Shown here piece by piece: positions 12,714-21,474 of a stretch of DNA of 36,479 bases. Made by a program: the position numbers and the translations under genes. How positions within the stretch are numbered: position 1 is the stretch's first letter; the number at the start of each line of letters is the position of its first letter. Where the stretch lies: assembly GCA_012031965.1 (NCBI GenBank), contig JAAUSC010000054.1, positions 1-36,479 on the forward strand, given 5' to 3'. This DNA is from Scytonema sp. RU_4_4. Its GTDB lineage: Bacteria > Cyanobacteriota > Cyanobacteriia > Cyanobacteriales > Nostocaceae. The notes under the pieces were generated by a model. The model was not told where the DNA came from. It made no database searches and saw only the letters and a program-made list of their open reading frames with translations.

Positions 12714-14503
12714 CTAACGTTTCGCCAACTTCTTCGCCAACTTCCGCAGACGAATTGACGCAGGAGTGACTTCCACCAATTCATCTGGTCCGATGTACTC
12801 TAAAGCACGCTCTAGACTCATATCCACTGGTGCTTGCAACTGCACCAGTTCATCACCACCAGATGCACGATGGTTGGTCAGTTGCTTCGTCTTGCAGACG
12901 TTCAGTTCCAAGTCTTGGGGACGATTGTGTTCTCCCACAATCATGCCTTTGTAAACCTTGGTACCTGGAACAATAAAGAAGACACCTCTATCTTCGGCGT
13001 TCTTCATGGCGTAGAAGGTGGAAACGCCTTCCTCAAAGGAGATTAAGACGCCTTTGTTACGAGCCTCAATATCACCAGAGATAGAACGGTAGTCAAGGAA
13101 ACTGTGGTTCATGATACCTTCACCACGAGTCATACGCATGAATTCACCCCGGAAACCAATTAATCCACGGGCGGGAATGACAAATTCTAGCTGGGTGCGT
13201 CCGTTACCACCCACTTGCATATCTTGCATTTCGCCTTTGCGTTGTCCCAGTCGCTCAATGCAACTACCAACAGCATCTTCAGGAACGTCTAATACCAGAA
13301 GTTCGTAAGGTTCGCAAGGTTGTCCGTTGACTTCGCGGTAAATCACCTGTGGCTGAGAGACTTGAAACTCATAACCTTCGCGGCGCATGGTTTCGATTAA
13401 GATACCCAAGTGTAGTTCTCCACGTCCAGAAACCAGGAATTTATCGGGGGAGTCGGTTTCTTCAACGCGCAGAGCGACGTTGGTTTCAAGTTCACGAAGG
13501 AGCGATCGCGCACTTGTCGTGATGTTACCAACTTTCCTTCTTGACCTGCAAAAGGTGAATCATTCACCGAGAAGGTCATTTGCAATGTTGGTTCATCGAC
13601 CTTAATGAGTGGTAATGCTTGGGGTTCGTTCGGGTCAGTAATGGTTTCCCCAATGTTGGCATCGGCAAATCCTGCCACAGCTATGATGTTTCCAGCGGAT
13701 GCTTCTGAGATTTCAATTCGCTTGAGCCCTTCAAAGCCCATCAACTTGGTGATTTTTGCTTTGACAGTTTCGCCGTTTTCTTTCACCAAAGCGGCTTGCT
13801 GTCCCATGCGGATGATACCGTTGTGAATTTTGCCAATGACAATCCGTCCTAGATACTCGGAATAATCCAGGGTTGTCACTTGTAGTTGCAGAGGTTTCTC
13901 TGCGTCACCCACTGGTGCTGGTACATGGCGCAGGATAGCTTCAAACAACGGCTGCATATCCTTAGATTCATCTTCTAACTGTTCTTTGGCATAGCCACTC
14001 AAACCAGAAGCAAACAAGTAAGGAAAATCACACTGGTCATCATCTGCCCCTAGTTCCAGAAACAGATCCAACACTTTATCTGTAGCACCATGTGGATCTG
14101 CTTGGGGACGGTCGATTTTATTGACCACGACGATGGGGCGCAGTCCTTTTTCCAAGGCTTTTTTCAAGACAAACCGTGTTTGGGGCATGGGACCTTCATT
14201 TGCATCAACAATGAGAATGCAACCGTCAACCATGCCGAGTACACGTTCGACTTCGCCACCGAAGTCAGCGTGTCCGGGTGTATCAACAATGTTGATCAGC
14301 GTGTCGCCATAGCGAACCGCAGTATTTTTGGCAAGAATTGTAATTCCCCGTTCCCGTTCAAGGGCGTTGGAGTCCATGACGCAATCCGGAACGTCTTCTC
14401 CTTCACGGAAGATGCCAGATTGTTTGAGGAGAGCATCAACAAGGGTTGTTTTGCCGTGGTCAACGTGGGCAATAATAGCGACGTTACGGATGGGGAGCGT
14501 CAT
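12714..14503 (-). pseudogene. typA: ribosome-associated GTPase TypA/BipA, single-base frameshift
   Basis: TypA is a translational GTPase of the EF-G group that assists 50S assembly and stress adaptation. The N-terminal part (14503 down to about 13500) has G1 AHVDHGKTT, switch G2 in RERGITI, G3 DTPGH, G4 NKID, then domain II. At residue about 334 (VTSRQVRDR) the frame breaks and runs into an unrelated tail ending at 13397. The following frame continues exactly where it should ([20 protein letters not shown], then [13 protein letters not shown]) to the stop at 12714. Restoring one base at 13498-13506, beside a HIP1 site, gives 596 residues, the normal length. Because both halves are otherwise perfect, a sequencing or assembly error or a very recent mutation is most likely. 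Confidence 0.9.
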
Positions 14504-15227: not shown

Positions 15228-17024
15228 ATGGATATACAATTGCAAGAAGCCTTTACTGACATTGACCCAAGAATACAACTGCATCTGGATCGCAGAGCTA
15301 GAGGGTTAGTACCTCCTGCCACAGCCTCGACAGCAAAGGGGGAAATTGCTGTCATTGCCAAGGTTTCTGATTTAACAAGCTGGTTGAGCCGAAGCGAAGT
15401 CTTTGCAGGAGCTAATCTGGGCAACACACTTGATGGTGCTTATATTGTTACGGCAAGAGTACCACTCAATCGGGTGGAAATTCTACGACAACTTCCTTAC
15501 GTTCAAAGCCTCAAGGCTTCTCAAATCCTCAAACCGGCACTAAAGTCAACAATTGAAGAAATAAAAGCCAGGGTAGATTTGCTACCGCCTCTGACTCAAG
15601 GACAACAAGGAGAAGGTGTTGTCGTTGGCATTATCGACTATGGATGTGACTTCGTCCATCAAAATTTTCGTAATCCTGATGGCAGTACGCGTATTCTGGC
15701 ACTGTGGGATCAAACTGTTTTATCTGGAACATCTAGCCATTTAGGATATGGTCGGGTTTACACTCAAACTGAAATTAATGCGGCTTTGCAAACAGTTGAC
15801 CCCTACACTAGCTTAGGACACGATCCAGGCAGAGCAAGTCATGGAACCCATGTAATGGATATTGCCTGTGGCAATGGTGGTGGCAGCAGTGTCCCTGGTG
15901 TTGCTCCCCAAGCAGATATAATCTTTGTGCAAATCAGTGCTAGCGACATTCCTTGGCAAGGCTCAGATGTAGTTAGCTCTAATTTTGGAGGTTCAGTACA
16001 ACTTTTAGAAGCCATTCAATTTATCTTTGAGCAAGCAGGGACTCGCCCTTGCACTATTAACATTAGCCTGGGAACGAATGGTGGTTCTCATGATGGAACC
16101 AGCTTAGTTGAGCAAGGAATTGATGCTGTTGTTACTGCTCAACCTAATCGCGCTGTTGTCATTGCTGCCAGCAATTCATATGAAGATGGTATCCATGCCA
16201 GTGGTCAGGTTATGCAAGGAAATTTTATCGACCTTATCTGGCAAATTGGGCAGTTCGATTTTACTCATAACGAACTCGAAATTTGGTATAGCAAAGACGA
16301 TCAACTAAAGTTAGAACTCATTGAGCAAGACGATCGCAGCATTGGTGAAGTAAATTTGGGTGCTTCTGCTCGGATTCTTAATCAGGCAAACGAACTACTC
16401 TTTTTCGTTGCTCATCGCCAAGGAGATCCTAACAATGGAGACAATACCATTGGTATTTTCATGAATACTGAGTCTATGCCTTCAAGCCTCCCCCCAAAAA
16501 TTAAGCTTCGCCTACATGGTATCACTATCAATGATGGTCAGTTTCATGCTTGGATCGAACGAGATGACAATGGGCAGTCTAGCTTTGCCCCTCCCCATGA
16601 TAACTCCCATACACTTGGGTCTATCTCCTGTGGAAAACAAAGTATAGTCGTAGGCTCATACGATGCTCACACCTCTGGACAGCCCTTATCTTGGTTCTCT
16701 AGTGCTGGTCCAACCAGAGATGGACGACAAAAGCCAGAAATTAGTGCGCCCGGACATAATGTATTGGCTGCCAATTCTTCAACCCGCATCGGGGTTACTC
16801 GTATGTCTGGAACTAGCATGGCTGCTCCTGCTGTCACTGGAGTTGTAGCCCTTATACTTGCTGAAGCCCGCAGCCTAAATAAAGATCTTACAGTTGATCA
16901 GATCCGTGACATTTTAGCTAAGACCCCTGGTTTAAGTCCACCCAATACGGCATGGAATGATCGCTACGGCATGGGACGTGTGGACGCTAGTGCATCGGTA
17001 CAGAAAGTACGCGATCTGCCATAG
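15228..17024 (+). CDS. subtilisin-like serine protease (S8 family, CspA-like insertion)
   Basis: The 598-residue protein has the S8 triad in order: Asp137 in GIIDYGCDF, His205 in SHGTHVMD, Ser530 in GTSMAAPAVTG, plus the oxyanion Asn315 in AASNS. Residues about 38-105 form an I9-like propeptide (EIAVIAKV...AYIVTARVPLNRVEILRQLPYVQSL in blocks), so it is probably made as a self-inhibited zymogen. After the Asp comes STRILALWDQT and YTQTEINAAL, a feature of clostridial CspA-type subtilases, and a beta-rich insertion (about 330-460) lies between Asn and Ser. No signal peptide is visible, so a cytoplasmic location or non-classical export is implied. The ATG follows GAGG at good spacing. A small partner gene starts 10 bases after the stop. 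Confidence 0.93.
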   Translation: MDIQLQEAFTDIDPRIQLHLDRRARGLVPPATASTAKGEIAVIAKVSDLTSWLSRSEVFAGANLGNTLDGAYIVTARVPLNRVEILRQLPYVQSLKASQILKPALKSTIEEIKARVDLLPPLTQGQQGEGVVVGIIDYGCDFVHQNFRNPDGSTRILALWDQTVLSGTSSHLGYGRVYTQTEINAALQTVDPYTSLGHDPGRASHGTHVMDIACGNGGGSSVPGVAPQADIIFVQISASDIPWQGSDVVSSNFGGSVQLLEAIQFIFEQAGTRPCTINISLGTNGGSHDGTSLVEQGIDAVVTAQPNRAVVIAASNSYEDGIHASGQVMQGNFIDLIWQIGQFDFTHNELEIWYSKDDQLKLELIEQDDRSIGEVNLGASARILNQANELLFFVAHRQGDPNNGDNTIGIFMNTESMPSSLPPKIKLRLHGITINDGQFHAWIERDDNGQSSFAPPHDNSHTLGSISCGKQSIVVGSYDAHTSGQPLSWFSSAGPTRDGRQKPEISAPGHNVLAANSSTRIGVTRMSGTSMAAPAVTGVVALILAEARSLNKDLTVDQIRDILAKTPGLSPPNTAWNDRYGMGRVDASASVQKVRDLP

Positions 17025-17034
17025 GAGTTAAGTC

Positions 17035-17406
17035 ATGAAAAGATGGCACAAAGCTATAATTGTAATAGTTTCAACGTTGATCGTGGTCTTCCCTATTTCT
17101 AAATACGCTATGTCTTCAGATCAGCATGATAACACCTCAAAATACAGGGTTGAATACGTTCCCCCTGAAAATTCAAAGTTGAAGTTAAGTGGAGAAGCTC
17201 TTAGACAGTTGAATCAGGAAGCTTTTCTGGTGGCAACAGTGAAGGTTGCCAAGGAGGGATATATACCCTCTGGGATTGAGATTCGTACTTGGATTAGTTC
17301 ATCAATCTTTACTGCAAATATCCCCCGTGAGATATTAGCTCGTCTAGAAGGCGATCCTGCTGTTGTGTCGATTGAACCAGTTTATAAGTTGAGATCGTAC
17401 GAATAA
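17035..17406 (+). CDS. small secreted or anchored protein resembling a protease propeptide (I9-like)
   Basis: The 123-residue product starts with KR and a hydrophobic segment (residues 7-22, IIVIVSTLIVVFPI), a signal peptide or membrane anchor. Residues 64-119 match the shape of the propeptide of the preceding protease. FLVATVKV parallels IAVIAKV; IFTANIPREILARLEGDPAVVSIE parallels the propeptide stretch that reads YIVTARVPLNRVEILRQLP and then YVQSLK. That alternation of strand, helix, strand is the I9 inhibitor fold. It starts 10 bases after the protease stop with GGAG upstream of the ATG, so they are co-transcribed. Free-standing I9 domains known elsewhere inhibit or help fold subtilases; that role here is inference. 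The export signal, absent from the protease, is odd. Confidence 0.8.
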   Translation: MKRWHKAIIVIVSTLIVVFPISKYAMSSDQHDNTSKYRVEYVPPENSKLKLSGEALRQLNQEAFLVATVKVAKEGYIPSGIEIRTWISSSIFTANIPREILARLEGDPAVVSIEPVYKLRSYE

Positions 17407-17415
17407 AGTCTGTTT

Positions 17416-17453
17416 ATTGACACTCCCCGTGCTAAAGCACGGGGAGTGTCAAT
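17416..17453. terminator. strong hairpin after the protease pair
   Basis: A perfect 17-bp stem (17416-17432 with 17437-17453) built on CACTCCCCGTGC with loop TAAA begins 10 bases after the stop codon. It could end transcription, but no T-run follows on either strand. Hairpins reading CCCCGTGC-TAAA-GCACGGGG are also common at ends of IS200/IS605-type elements, so it may instead be a mobile-element scar. Confidence 0.55.
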
Positions 17454-17584
17454 GATGTTGATTCAATATAAATTCCAAACTTCTAGTCTGTGGGCAATTT
17501 AAACATTTGGGATGCTTCCGCAGATAATACCATTTTGGATTTTATAGCGGTTCTCATTTGAATCACATACACCACCACGAATAA

Positions 17585-17812: not shown

Positions 17813-18607
17813 CTACATTGATTCCAAACGCTGACGCAATTTGCTACTCAAGGCATCAATCACAGTCACGACTACCGACAGTATCAATATCATAGTCGTT
17901 GCCTTAGTATACTCAAAGCCATCTATATAACTTTTGAGTTCAAAACCAAACCCTCCAGCACCGACAGCACCAAGAACTGAAGCAGCACGGATATTGTACT
18001 CAAACATCCACAAGGTGTAGCCCAACACTAAAGGTAGTACTTGGGGCAAAATACCATATTGAGCAATTTGTATTCGAGATGCACCAGCAACTTGTAAAGA
18101 CTCAATAGAACGAGGGTCAACCGCTTCAATAGCTTGCTGATAGAATTTTCCTAGGTAGCCAATTGTGTAAATACTTAAAGCTAATGTACCTGCTAAGGGA
18201 CCCAATCCAGTTGCTGCGACAAATAATAATCCAAGAATAATCGAGGGGACAGAACGCACAGCATTTTGCAGGAAATTCGCTAACCATTGCAGCCAAACAG
18301 GAGCGACATTGCGAGCGCTTGCAATAGCAATGGGGAGAGAAAACATTGCTCCAAGAGTCGTTCCTACCACAGACATCTGCACAGTTTCTACAAGTGCTTT
18401 GACTGTTTTGTTGAAAATATCCCAACTTGTATTTGGGGGAAATAACCGTGACACAAAATCAATGATGTTGAACAAACTCTGTTTTAAGAGTCCAAAATCA
18501 ACTTTAAGACCTTGCAACGCCCAACCATAAACCAAAATAACAACGCACAGGATGAGTAGGCGACTCACCCAAGAAAAGCGTTTCCAAACACGAGAAAAAT
18601 TTTTCAT
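17813..18607 (-). CDS. phnE: phosphonate/phosphite-type ABC transporter permease
   Basis: This is the inner-membrane channel subunit of a PhnCDE-type importer. The 264-residue protein has about six membrane helices. The binding-protein-dependent permease (EAA) loop lies in the last third: EAVDPRSIESLQVAGASRIQIAQYGILPQVLPLVLGY in blocks, where E-x3-AGAS-x(9)-LPQ is the PhnE form. The C-terminal RAASVLGAVGAGGFGFEL and FEYTKATTMILIL are also typical. It is last of three minus-strand genes, 40 bases after phnC. The substrate may be phosphonate, phosphite or phosphate; the sequence does not decide. Confidence 0.9.
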   Translation of the reverse strand: MKNFSRVWKRFSWVSRLLILCVVILVYGWALQGLKVDFGLLKQSLFNIIDFVSRLFPPNTSWDIFNKTVKALVETVQMSVVGTTLGAMFSLPIAIASARNVAPVWLQWLANFLQNAVRSVPSIILGLLFVAATGLGPLAGTLALSIYTIGYLGKFYQQAIEAVDPRSIESLQVAGASRIQIAQYGILPQVLPLVLGYTLWMFEYNIRAASVLGAVGAGGFGFELKSYIDGFEYTKATTMILILSVVVTVIDALSSKLRQRLESM

Positions 18608-18647
18608 CTACAAAAAAGAATTCGCCTACTATGTGCGATCGCCTCGA

Positions 18648-19376
18648 CTATACCTGAGCAAATTGAGCTTGCAGATTATCACAACACCCATCGTAAATAA
18701 CACGTCCAGCATCCAACACAATTGCTCGCTGGGCGTACTCAGCCGCTACACCCAAATCGTGTAGAACTGTAACGATTGTCATACCTTGCTGTGAGTGCAG
18801 CATTGACAAAGTGTCCATCACCTGCTTAGATGCTTTGATATCCAATCCCGTAATGGGTTCATCTGCGAGTAGAATTTGAGGAGATTGAATTAAAGCACGG
18901 GCGATCGCCACTCGTTGTTGCTGTCCACCGCTGAGTTGACCTGTTTTTTGATAAGCTTGCTCCCTTAAGCCCAATTGTTCCAACAGTTCCAATGCTTGAC
19001 GACGGTCATTTTTAGGAAACCCAAACAGCGTTTGCCAAGTTGTCCTAGTACCCAGGCGTCCACACAACACATTTTCAATAGCTGATAACTGACGAATCAA
19101 TCCGCCACCCTGAAATAACATACCAATATCACGTCGAATGTGAGGCAGTGTGCGAGGAGTTAACGACGTACCATTGATCTCGATTGCTCCCCGCAAGATT
19201 GGTACTAACCCAACTAAAGAACGCAAAAGCGTAGACTTCCCAGCGCCATTGAGTCCCAGCAATACAACAAACTCACCCTGATGAATCTGGCAATTAATTC
19301 GATTAAGGATCGGACGATTTAGAGCTGCGGAATAGGTAGTTTCTATATCCTGACACTCAATTACTGGCTGAGTCAT
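18648..19376 (-). CDS. phnC: phosphonate/phosphite-type ABC transporter ATP-binding protein
   Basis: This is the cytoplasmic ATPase of the importer. The 242-residue protein has Walker A GLNGAGKST, the Q-loop in IGMLFQGGGLIRQLSAIENV (a form typical of PhnC), signature LSGGQQQR, Walker B ILLADEPITGLD and the switch histidine in TVLHDLG. The stretch NVLCGRLGTRTTWQTLFG is the PhnC-specific insertion. It lies between phnD (106 bases upstream) and phnE (40 bases downstream), on the same strand. Confidence 0.92.
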   Translation of the reverse strand: MTQPVIECQDIETTYSAALNRPILNRINCQIHQGEFVVLLGLNGAGKSTLLRSLVGLVPILRGAIEINGTSLTPRTLPHIRRDIGMLFQGGGLIRQLSAIENVLCGRLGTRTTWQTLFGFPKNDRRQALELLEQLGLREQAYQKTGQLSGGQQQRVAIARALIQSPQILLADEPITGLDIKASKQVMDTLSMLHSQQGMTIVTVLHDLGVAAEYAQRAIVLDAGRVIYDGCCDNLQAQFAQV

Positions 19377-19482
19377 ATATTATGTTGCTGAGTATTTCTA
19401 TTAGCTGTTTGGAAAGATGAGGTGATGGGGAGATGGGGAGGATGTTACTCCCTTATCTCCCTTATCTCCCTCATCTGACTAA
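19377..19482. promoter_or_regulatory. intra-operon inverted repeat between phnD and phnC
   Basis: GATGAGGTGATGGGGAGATG (19418 onward) faces the pyrimidine-rich CTCCCTTATCTCCCTCATC on the far side of a short loop. The imperfect hairpin directly follows the phnD stop and could protect or partly end the phnD mRNA, a usual way to obtain more binding protein than transporter. There is no T-run. Confidence 0.35.
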
Positions 19483-20457
19483 TTACGGTTCAATTCCTGC
19501 ATTCTTCAGGGCTTCACGAATTGGTCCTAAGTGCTTGTTATGGTCAACTTTCACCAATTCTGTGGAGTTATACAAGCCGCGCAGCATCTCGTTGTTTTGT
19601 GGCTCATTTAATTTCAGCAAAGCATTGATAATTCGTTCACGCATGGGAGCAGAAACGTCATCATCAATAGCTACGCCGTGTGCTGGAACACCAGGAATTT
19701 TATACAAAACCCGTAACTGACTTTTTTCTGCGTCTGAAATATACGGGGTGCCGAAAGCATATTCTGACACAGCTGCTGCATCTGCCTGACCTTGCACAAC
19801 TGCTTTTAAAGCTTTACTGTAATCGCCACCGTAAACAACTTGACTGAAGAAACTGTCTAGGCGATCGCGATTTTCCACAAGTTTCTGTTTAACCATCTCA
19901 CCCACAGGGAAGATGAACCCAGAACCAGAAGTTGGCGAAGTAAATGCCATTTTTTTACCCCGCAACTGTTCCAAGGTCGCTTTGGATGTGCCTAGAGTTT
20001 TGAGGGAGCTATCTTTCGGGACAACAATGATTGAATTATAAGTGTATTTTCCAGAGTAATTCGGACGTACCTCAGCTAAGTACAAGCGTGCGCCTGCGAG
20101 TTCCTCAGCTTTCAAAGCCGGACGGCTACTCAAGAAAGCTACATCAGCGCTATTTGCTCTTAAGGCTTCTACAGCAGCTGTATCATCACCGACTTTTGCC
20201 TGAACTGGCATTTTGAGTTCTTTTGACAAAAACGCTGCGACTTTATCTGCTTTACTTTGCAAATCTGGTGCATCTTTGCGATTAGGAAAGATAACTGTTA
20301 AAGTTTTTTGCTGTCTTTGAGCAAGTAAAGTTGAATCTTTTTGATTTCGCGTTGAGTTAGCAACTGCTTGCATACCTCCAAAGCTACCAGCAACCAAACC
20401 TGTCAGCATCACAAATGCAGCACCAGCACTTAACCAACCGTTTTTCCTCACACTCAT
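19483..20457 (-). CDS. phnD: phosphate/phosphonate/phosphite ABC transporter substrate-binding protein
   Basis: This is the periplasmic receptor of the importer. The ATG at 20457 (MSVRKNGWLSAG) is preferred over the TTG 14 codons upstream because GGAGAA lies eight bases before it and the signal peptide (SAGAAFVMLTGLVAGSFGG) then sits correctly at the N-terminus. The 324-residue product has the PhnD fold: TVIFPNRKDAPDLQSKADKV in the first lobe, ADVAFLSSRPAL, the ligand-pocket segment FTSPTSGSGFIFPVGEM, then YGGDYSKALKAVVQGQADAAAVSEYA. The Ser/Thr-rich S-P-T-S-G-S-G loop binds the oxyanion. A perfect 14-base palindrome (20507-20520) stands 50 bases upstream. Confidence 0.9.
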   Translation of the reverse strand: MSVRKNGWLSAGAAFVMLTGLVAGSFGGMQAVANSTRNQKDSTLLAQRQQKTLTVIFPNRKDAPDLQSKADKVAAFLSKELKMPVQAKVGDDTAAVEALRANSADVAFLSSRPALKAEELAGARLYLAEVRPNYSGKYTYNSIIVVPKDSSLKTLGTSKATLEQLRGKKMAFTSPTSGSGFIFPVGEMVKQKLVENRDRLDSFFSQVVYGGDYSKALKAVVQGQADAAAVSEYAFGTPYISDAEKSQLRVLYKIPGVPAHGVAIDDDVSAPMRERIINALLKLNEPQNNEMLRGLYNSTELVKVDHNKHLGPIREALKNAGIEP

Positions 20458-20506
20458 GTAATATTCTCCATTAGAAAAGTTTCTTAATAATTTTGCCAAA
20501 GTCTTT

Positions 20507-20985: not shown

Positions 20986-21474
20986 TCAAACTCTTTTATC
21001 TCTTACTCTGCGCCACGCCAGGTCGCACCGTCGGGGGAACCCCAACGCCAGAACAAGCGTGAGGGAAACAAGGACTGCAGTACTGGCTCCGCAACGCACT
21101 GGCTCCTCTGATGACTTGAGTTTTTCCATTAATGCAATATTGTGATACCACGTAATTTGTGCAGCAGGCTGCTGCACAAATTGCTCATCAGGGTAAGCCT
21201 CAGCAAAAGCCCGCATATACTTAAGATTGCGGGACAAAAAACCCTTCATGTCTGGAAAAGCTTTGCGTAAGTCAGCCGCCAAACGATCAATAACTTTTGC
21301 TCCCCAGCCTTGCTGCTGCTGTCGCATGAGGATATCTCGCCCAATTTGCCAATACAGAAGTATCAATTCACGGTTAACAGCAAGCGCCGCCCGTACTTGA
21401 GCTTGTCTAATACGTTCTTTAAGTTCGCCTAAAAACTCTTCATACCCTTGAGCAACAGGTAACTCATTCGCCAT
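20986..21474 (-). pseudogene. truncated DUF1016 (YhcG-type) nuclease gene
   Basis: Residues 1-124 match the DUF1016 N-terminal domain: LLYWQIGRDILMRQQQQGWG, VIDRLAADLRKAFPD, SRNLKYMRAFAEAYP and ITWYHNIALMEKLKSSEE in blocks. Family members are about 340-380 residues and carry a C-terminal PDDEXK nuclease domain; here that domain is missing. After codon 124 (21103) the frame enters repeat DNA (21064-21105) that also occurs near 29386-29427, and continues as a meaningless tail (PVRCGASTAVLVSLTLVL). So the gene was cut by a repeat insertion or deletion. It starts 3 bases after the ridA stop on the same strand. Intact relatives often accompany restriction or defence loci. Confidence 0.8.
21064..21105. 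repeat. dispersed repeat, copy 1
   Basis: This 42-base block (starting GGAAACAAGGACTG, ending CAACGCACTGGCTC) matches 29386-29427 at 37 of 42 positions. It lies exactly at the break in the DUF1016 gene. Confidence 0.65.

Follow-up and report, generated by a model that had tools for sequence, protein, structure and literature searches.

Small proteins that mimic the propeptide of a subtilase and are encoded by a gene of their own are known from eukaryotes. In the accessible part of one report, three of them are given as well characterized, from Pleurotus, yeast and Arabidopsis, and Toxoplasma MIC5 and a Plasmodium protein are added (PMC6993865). The same part describes SUB1-ProM of Plasmodium as a stand-alone propeptide-like protein that lies beside subtilase genes and is a potent inhibitor of SUB1 (PMC6993865), and in the accessible part of another report the POIA1/YIB2 exchange of six C-terminal residues alters inhibitory potency (PMC10580911). 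No bacterial stand-alone propeptide mimic was found in the open-licence full-text literature, as far as its texts were accessible. Here, we describe a bacterial pair of this kind in a stretch of 36,479 nucleotides from Scytonema sp. RU_4_4 (contig JAAUSC010000054.1), which as a whole is called the window. On the forward strand, the gene of a subtilisin-like (S8) protease of 598 residues at 15228-17024 is followed, after a gap of 10 bases, by a small open reading frame (ORF) of 123 residues at 17035-17406. The original prediction, made from this DNA alone, placed the 123-residue protein directly downstream with the same coordinates and sizes and regarded one of its domains as parallel to the N-terminal propeptide of the protease; this observation holds and is larger than first described.

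Like the MEROPS I9 mimics (Pleurotus POIA1, the yeast proteinase B inhibitor and Arabidopsis SPI-1), MIC5 and SUB1-ProM, the small protein is a separate gene product with a predicted propeptide-like fold, and its gene adjoins a subtilase gene as is described for SUB1-ProM in the part of the report cited (PMC6993865). Unlike the eukaryotic mimics, it is bacterial and stands beside one protease that keeps its own propeptide, and partners of this kind turn up in no fewer than three S8 groups as well as on plasmids. It also differs from the known I9 mimics in having no Pfam I9 match. The best solved relatives of the protease family are CspB and the other Csp germination proteases. According to the accessible part of the CspB report, CspB is inhibited by its propeptide, which is not released; the propeptide can also be supplied in trans, where it restores folding and prevents labelling of the active site, and this block is abolished when its last 3-4 residues are cut off (PMC3567191). 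Csp regulation rests on the cis propeptide, and a separate propeptide gene is not mentioned in that part of the text (PMC3567191), whereas the window encodes such a gene beside the protease. Propeptide mimics as such were already known, and what sets this case apart from them is the bacterial unit of a protease and a free copy of a propeptide.

Homology of the small protein to subtilase propeptides

The small protein had no match in Pfam at E up to 10 or in NCBIfam at E up to 1. PF05922 (Inhibitor_I9), the Pfam model used as the test for MEROPS I9, matched neither the small protein nor the protease's own propeptide at E up to 10, and BLASTP of the small protein against the protease gave nothing relevant (best E 0.71, elsewhere in both sequences). 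These negatives indicate that the resemblance lies below pairwise detection and that statistical tests were needed. Partners are grouped here into type A (downstream, as in the window), type B (upstream) and type C (another downstream type), and 30 representatives were chosen, namely 15 of type A, 6 of type B, 8 of type C and 1 fused. When the profile of the small protein was compared with the 627 distinct ORFs of the collected loci, the small proteins themselves were followed by 16 non-self matches, all N-terminal propeptides of S8 proteases, with E-values from 5.2e-5 to 0.76, ahead of any other ORF. The region matched in these 16 proteases lies at about residues 70-105 of the orthologues. 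The reverse profile, built from 18 propeptides, gave weak non-self matches in the same set that include small proteins (best E 0.019), and a propeptide-only profile detected the small protein of the window at E 4.6e-6. Alignment by hhalign of the 15 type A partners with 26 propeptide segments, cut by hand, gave a probability of 96.0, an E-value of 4.7e-9 and a score of 52.9, and 100 column-shuffled controls reached at most a probability of 5.9 and a score of 20.2. The small protein is thus a homologue of the propeptide of the protease upstream of it. The profile comparison proposed with the original prediction bore out homology to the propeptides of proteases, and a match to Pfam Inhibitor_I9 was absent for both proteins; "I9" is used here for the fold and the homology to subtilase propeptides and not for a Pfam match. 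Among relatives, PF05922 was found in 1 of 40 genomes and was absent from the own genome, so that it is useless as a bridge between the small protein and the propeptides.

Structure prediction pointed in the same direction. AlphaFold2 was run with alignments of 15 and 14 rows, made of window and related-locus sequences; larger alignments of 20 and 22 rows were not used. In the small protein, the predicted propeptide-like core (residues 64-115; 17224-17379, forward strand) consists of strands at 64-71, 82-86 and 91-97, a helix at 98-106 and a last strand at 110-115. The pLDDT of these blocks was 83-92 as far as residue 110 and 73 beyond, with a mean of 65 for the model. For the protease's own propeptide, whose core (residues 39-97; 15342-15518, forward strand) was delimited by structure prediction and profile matches, a strand-helix-strand-strand-helix-strand order was predicted less confidently (strand 39-46, helix 49-53, strands 59-66 and 72-79, helix 80-87 and strand 92-97; block pLDDT 58-77). 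The segments that had originally been cited as parallel lie in predicted elements. When the model of the small protein was searched in the Protein Data Bank (PDB) with Foldseek, the nine best matches were all subtilase propeptides or pro-forms, 2z57_B, 3cnq_P and 2z58_B among them, and together with the model this points to the propeptide-like fold for which the original prediction had proposed to look.

Several results speak against this homology and could suggest that a small membrane ORF resembles a propeptide by chance. Besides the missing Pfam and pairwise BLAST matches, the Foldseek probability reached 0.98, yet no E-value was below 0.1, which is a weak point, and a search of PDB sequences with the small-protein profile gave chance matches only (best E 0.22). 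The window's own protease was not matched by the small-protein profile among the 627 ORFs at E up to 5, which places its propeptide among the more diverged ones, and the first helix of a standard propeptide is missing from the type A model. Chance resemblance is contradicted by the column-shuffle controls, by the reciprocal profile matches and by conservation across phyla. It is contradicted also by purifying selection on the small gene (dN/dS 0.10-0.35 for 11 pairs of type A homologues), and we consider it extremely improbable.

The protease is assigned to peptidase family S8 by its match to PF00082 (E 8.7e-29) and by its Asp-His-Ser triad. D137 (15636-15638), H205 (15840-15842) and S530 (16815-16817), all on the forward strand, are in place together with N316 and are invariant in an alignment of 22 rows. 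Among the best 60 of 117 matches to solved structures, the nearest by sequence are Csp germination proteases (9sj6, E 8e-70; 4i0w, E 9.7e-69). Seven of the eight best of these 60 are named Csp or germination proteases, and the eighth, 9sj9_A, is an S8 peptidase from the same entry as one of the seven. With the NCBIfam CspBA and CspC models, the scores of 148.7 and 101.5 bits fall short of the cut-offs of 1250 and 675, and the protease is not filed as a Csp orthologue. Residues about 321-444 are predicted, with low to moderate confidence, to be beta-rich and may correspond to the Csp jellyroll insertion; the Csp jellyroll is described in the accessible part of PMC3567191.

Pairing of the two genes and spread of the partner

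Relatives of the small gene were gathered with the small protein or its alignment alone, ignoring the neighbours. The small gene was found in 19 of 217 genomes of the same family. When these genomes were searched separately with the protease, 27 matched at E up to 1e-40, and a limit of 1e-170 left exactly the identical 19. In an order-wide sample, 7 of 388 genomes carried the small gene, and the protease at E up to 1e-170 occurred in the identical 7; the two samples have three genomes in common. The genes are thus kept together in related genomes in whichever direction the search is made, as the original prediction would have it. The protease lies directly upstream in 18 of the 19 family genomes and 1.7 kb away in one; 14 named loci of a genome collection, which overlap the family sample and are not independent of it, comprise 13 directly adjacent pairs and one 1.7 kb apart. 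None of the remaining 6 genomes in the genus of the window carried the small gene, and a phylum sample searched with the first small-protein profile gave a single match among 292, namely the window. When 15 neighbourhoods were compared (ORFs of at least 80 residues), the protease and the partner alone were common to all, and the next commonest gene occurred in five.

Pairwise distances of the catalytic domains and of the partners correlated with r = 0.959 over 24 pairs, and the maximum of 2000 permutations was 0.413. Two pairs with the protease in two frames (G628 and G237), the pair 1.7 kb apart (G236) and that of R. etli were omitted. This correlation is expected if both genes travel as a unit, and we used it only as evidence of travelling together because shared ancestry gives the same result. 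In one Richelia genome (L028 and L059), the reading frame of the protease's propeptide is broken in two and the separate partner is intact; the break may be an assembly error.

Partners were also found in other S8 groups. The protease searches had given 12 remoter S8 proteases, nine from the family sample and three from the order sample, and six of them (L062, L063, L064, L068, L081 and L082) have a same-strand upstream partner of about 90 residues (type B). A profile made from two of these partners recovered all six protease propeptides (E 3.7e-5 to 0.029), and hhalign of the six partners with propeptides gave a probability of 95.8 over nearly the whole length. The type B profile matched 0 of 339 genomes, a sample without a known carrier in which the search is uninformative, and the type B partner had no plasmid match. 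The own genome contains nine S8 loci, one of which (C152, L088) has a downstream type C partner; a partner and a clear match to the propeptide profile coincide at the same two of the nine, both of these propeptides being part of that profile. Type C was present in 11 of 17 near genomes, the own genome included, beside an S8 gene in 7 and about 1.1 kb from one in 1, and its hhalign probability against propeptides was 96.2. Probabilities between types were 81 for A and C and 82 for B and C.

Plasmids also carry window-type pairs, namely in Sphingobium, Agrobacterium, R. etli, Rhizobium TH2 and R. leguminosarum. Over 96-99% of the length of the window protease, the proteases of these pairs share 48.6-51.5% identity with it. 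An actinobacterial plasmid of Embleya carries the type C arrangement. From the 25 plasmid records with a related protease, 15 were examined (14 and Embleya), and a separate partner was found in 6 of these, Embleya included. On a Sinorhizobium medicae plasmid (L120, 2431-4767), the protease has a propeptide-like domain at both the N- and the C-terminus, with profile matches at residues 71-194 and 713-793 counted from the first start codon of the ORF. In five annotated plasmid records, the type A partner is labelled 'hypothetical protein'. The small protein had no match in phage records, and in viral contigs, where the protein of one relative was the query, no relative of it was found. The arrangement is therefore present in at least three S8 groups, is not restricted to cyanobacteria and is not of a single form. 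A dedicated bacterial operon had been suggested originally: the pair does recur, without the single form and the confinement to cyanobacteria.

The location of the small protein was examined by hydropathy only. In the window, residues 7-21 (17053-17097, forward strand) form a hydrophobic N-terminal segment with a mean hydropathy of 2.97, a candidate anchor or export signal, and the protease has no such segment in its first 60 residues (maximum 15-residue hydropathy 1.15). A strongly hydrophobic N-terminus was found in 4 of 29 representative partners and not in the other 25. The four, from the window, G628, G597 and G652, form one clade, in which G628 and L027/MH1_Bin12 have identical partners. 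An export signal or anchor, which the original prediction had seen on the small protein and not on the protease, is therefore a trait of the window clade and not a general feature of the partner as judged from these sequences; the topology of the segment may be either, since the sequence alone does not settle it. Membrane guarding, a function proposed at the same time, cannot be general with such an N-terminus in only 4 of 29.

C-terminal tails and the proposed mode of action

The last strand of the protease's propeptide is followed by a tail, and a conserved Leu in this tail precedes the likely cut by a few residues. The same passage from strand to tail is seen in the small proteins. In the window, this last strand and C-terminal tail, VVSIEPVYKLRSYE, occupy 17362-17403 (forward strand) by alignment and profile match, and Leu119 aligns with the conserved Leu in the tail of the protease's propeptide. 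When the ends were read directly from individual partner tails, 13 of 15 type A representatives ended 3-4 residues after the conserved Leu, and all 6 type B partners ended 3-5 residues past the equivalent Leu/Met. These ends lie near the point at which the protease's own tail would be cut, and to the enzyme a free propeptide ending there would resemble the one that it has cleaved off.

The layout of the two genes is consistent with a common unit. A Shine-Dalgarno-like AGGAG (17023-17027, forward strand) overlaps the stop codon of the protease gene and lies 7 bases before the ATG of the small gene; it is also present at the equivalent place in G597 and G652 and not in L027. A terminator-like hairpin of 19 pairs (17414-17455, forward strand) lies directly 3' of the small gene, a position consistent with a two-gene unit; it is a consensus match only, one of 5 such sites found against 2.3 expected from shuffles. 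The two genes are likely to be translationally coupled and may share a transcript.

From the computed homology, fold resemblance, co-occurrence, co-inheritance, purifying selection and coincidence of the tails, we infer how the small protein may bind and inhibit, where it may be located, and what trigger and biological role it may have. The small gene would supply a subtilase propeptide a second time, as a free protein that is produced together with the protease from one two-gene unit. The small protein would bind the catalytic domain of its neighbour as a cleaved propeptide does, with its sheet packed on the enzyme surface and its C-terminal tail in the substrate groove. The conserved Leu would then lie at about P4 and the end at about P1/P1', a putative numbering based on known propeptide complexes. 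Such binding could set a threshold: a protease that has cleaved and released its propeptide would be capped again by the separate copy for as long as that copy is neither outnumbered nor degraded. Because the tails coincide and because the CspB propeptide and SUB1-ProM are precedents, we consider that the small protein is probably a trans-acting, product-like inhibitor of its neighbour and possibly also a folding helper. The differently placed partners in other S8 groups and the protease with propeptide-like domains at both ends count in favor of this.

It is less likely that the small protein serves its protease chiefly as a folding helper in trans and does not inhibit it lastingly. Both activities are common among propeptides, folding is restored by the CspB propeptide in trans according to the accessible part of that report (PMC3567191), and a shared two-gene unit fits this function. 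However, the protease already has a complete propeptide in cis, beside which a second helper looks redundant, and the conserved position of the tail is one that matters for inhibition. We therefore regard folding help as an unlikely principal function.

The following observations weigh against inhibition of the neighbour by a product-like tail. In 7 of 20 aligned cyanobacterial type A partners, the chain extends 9 residues beyond the Leu, and in 7 of 8 type C partners it extends 6 to 17 residues beyond the equivalent position; these longer tails fit a product-like tail more poorly. Types A and B have no direct resemblance (probability 0.9) and are linked via the propeptides. Some related proteases also lack a partner. 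None was found at the other 6 of the 12 remoter proteases, of which the L066 and L067 stretches lacked the upstream side, or beside the orthologue-like proteases of Acaryochloris and of G671, the latter from the order sample (E 1e-126). The other 8 of the 15 examined plasmid records likewise gave none, among them Paenibacillus, whose protease is 46% identical and has an IS3 element directly downstream. A check of 19 loci with all profiles revealed no overlooked separate partner in L060, L061, L065-L067, L080 and L113-L121. Conversely, some partners lack a protease. In 3 of the 11 genomes with type C (L103, L104 and L105), no S8 gene lies in the 1.5 kb fetched on each side, and these may possibly be solo inhibitors. 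A Leisingera plasmid carries a lone type A copy (L107, 3926-4192); an IS110 transposase gene lies downstream of it, and the 8.2 kb fetched around it contain no S8 motif. Finally, the protease of the window has no visible export signal and the partners of its clade have a hydrophobic N-terminus, so that their compartments may differ.

The solo type C copies and the Leisingera copy imply that some partners act alone or on another protease. They could be extended to the view that the small protein inhibits one or more other proteases in general and that its adjacency is a matter of history. The nine S8 loci of the own genome would offer such targets, and the possible mismatch of compartments in the window clade fits as well. 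This view is at odds with the two samples in which type A and one orthologous protease occur together, and with co-inheritance on plasmids of other phyla. It is also at odds with the coincidence of partner and clear propeptide-profile match at the same two of the nine own loci, and we consider it quite improbable.

Neighbouring genes and a possible role as a switch

Other genes were noted around the pair in the window. On the reverse strand at 17813-20499, ABC transporter genes for a permease, an ATPase and a phosphonate-type binding protein adjoin the pair; they are absent from the other 14 pair loci compared. A TypA/BipA-like GTPase on the reverse strand at 12714-14503, with matches to Pfam GTP_EFTU, EFG_C and BipA_C, is spread over two overlapping frames (13397-14503 and 12714-13409) by a frameshift or sequencing error. 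An ORF of 162 residues at 20986-21474 (reverse strand) has a DUF1016_N domain and is apparently truncated relative to usual members of that family. We also considered a defence role read from the pair's own neighbours in the window; this is unsupported, as the neighbours change among the 15 loci.

A role in immunity could still be read from the wider set of loci. In this reading, which is compatible with inhibition of the neighbour and adds a role to it, the pair would be a toxin-antitoxin-like or immune module in which a free propeptide restrains an intracellular subtilase until a trigger, for instance phage infection, releases it, and which on plasmids is joined to effector genes. The pair is a portable two-gene unit with changing neighbours and patchy occurrence, and the Sphingobium pair adjoins Tn3 and IS66 transposase genes. 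A PLD-like protein is encoded after the pair in 3 annotated Rhizobiaceae plasmids (L109, L111 and L112), one of which also has a CHAT-domain gene upstream. The two PLD-like proteins tested matched PLDc_2 (E 1.1e-21 and 3.4e-24), with a weak N-terminal match to NAL1_N, and partial matches to DrmC were found for the PLD-like protein after rhizobial pairs. Beside partnerless S8 relatives of Sinorhizobium and Rhizobium, the next gene downstream encodes an MBL-fold hydrolase, and the one tested resembles LmuA (E 1.4e-36) and Avs1a (E 2.2e-29). On a Sinorhizobium meliloti plasmid (L118, 1157-5939), an XendoU-type RNase, the S8 protease and the LmuA/Avs1a-like MBL hydrolase stand in a row, and a Shedu gene is found close to the other of these MBL hydrolases.

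An antiviral mechanism in which proteases activate MBL nucleases has been demonstrated, and the accessible part of the report describes pairs of a trypsin-like protease and an MBL nuclease (PMC12799240), which the rhizobial relatives beside PLD and MBL genes resemble. However, those nuclease-activating proteases are trypsin-like and not S8, no inhibitor protein is mentioned in that part of the text (PMC12799240), and the cyanobacterial pair has no conserved effector and no conserved third gene of any kind. In PADLOC, the window protease matched only a generic subtilase and, weakly, IetS, and the small protein was unmatched; its lack of a match in phage records also speaks against this role. 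An immune module is thus possible, and on this evidence we hold it to be rather doubtful. The same tentative credence applies to a broader proposal, in which intracellular Csp-like subtilases with a cis and a free (or far-end fused) propeptide would form a recurrent bacterial safety-catch, the free copy serving as the antitoxin of a proteolytic immune switch that acts on or with a nuclease-like effector in rhizobial plasmids.

Stand-alone propeptide inhibitors otherwise appear, in the accessible parts of the literature, as scattered eukaryotic cases. The bacterial form is tied to one protease and occurs in genomes of cyanobacteria as well as on plasmids of proteobacteria and actinobacteria, the partner lying upstream or downstream of the protease or being fused to it. 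The partner of the window escapes Pfam and NCBIfam annotation. The pair is a compact natural system for asking why a protease carries its inhibitor domain twice and how cis and trans propeptides share folding and inhibition, and it raises the question whether subtilases may act as switches inside bacterial cells.

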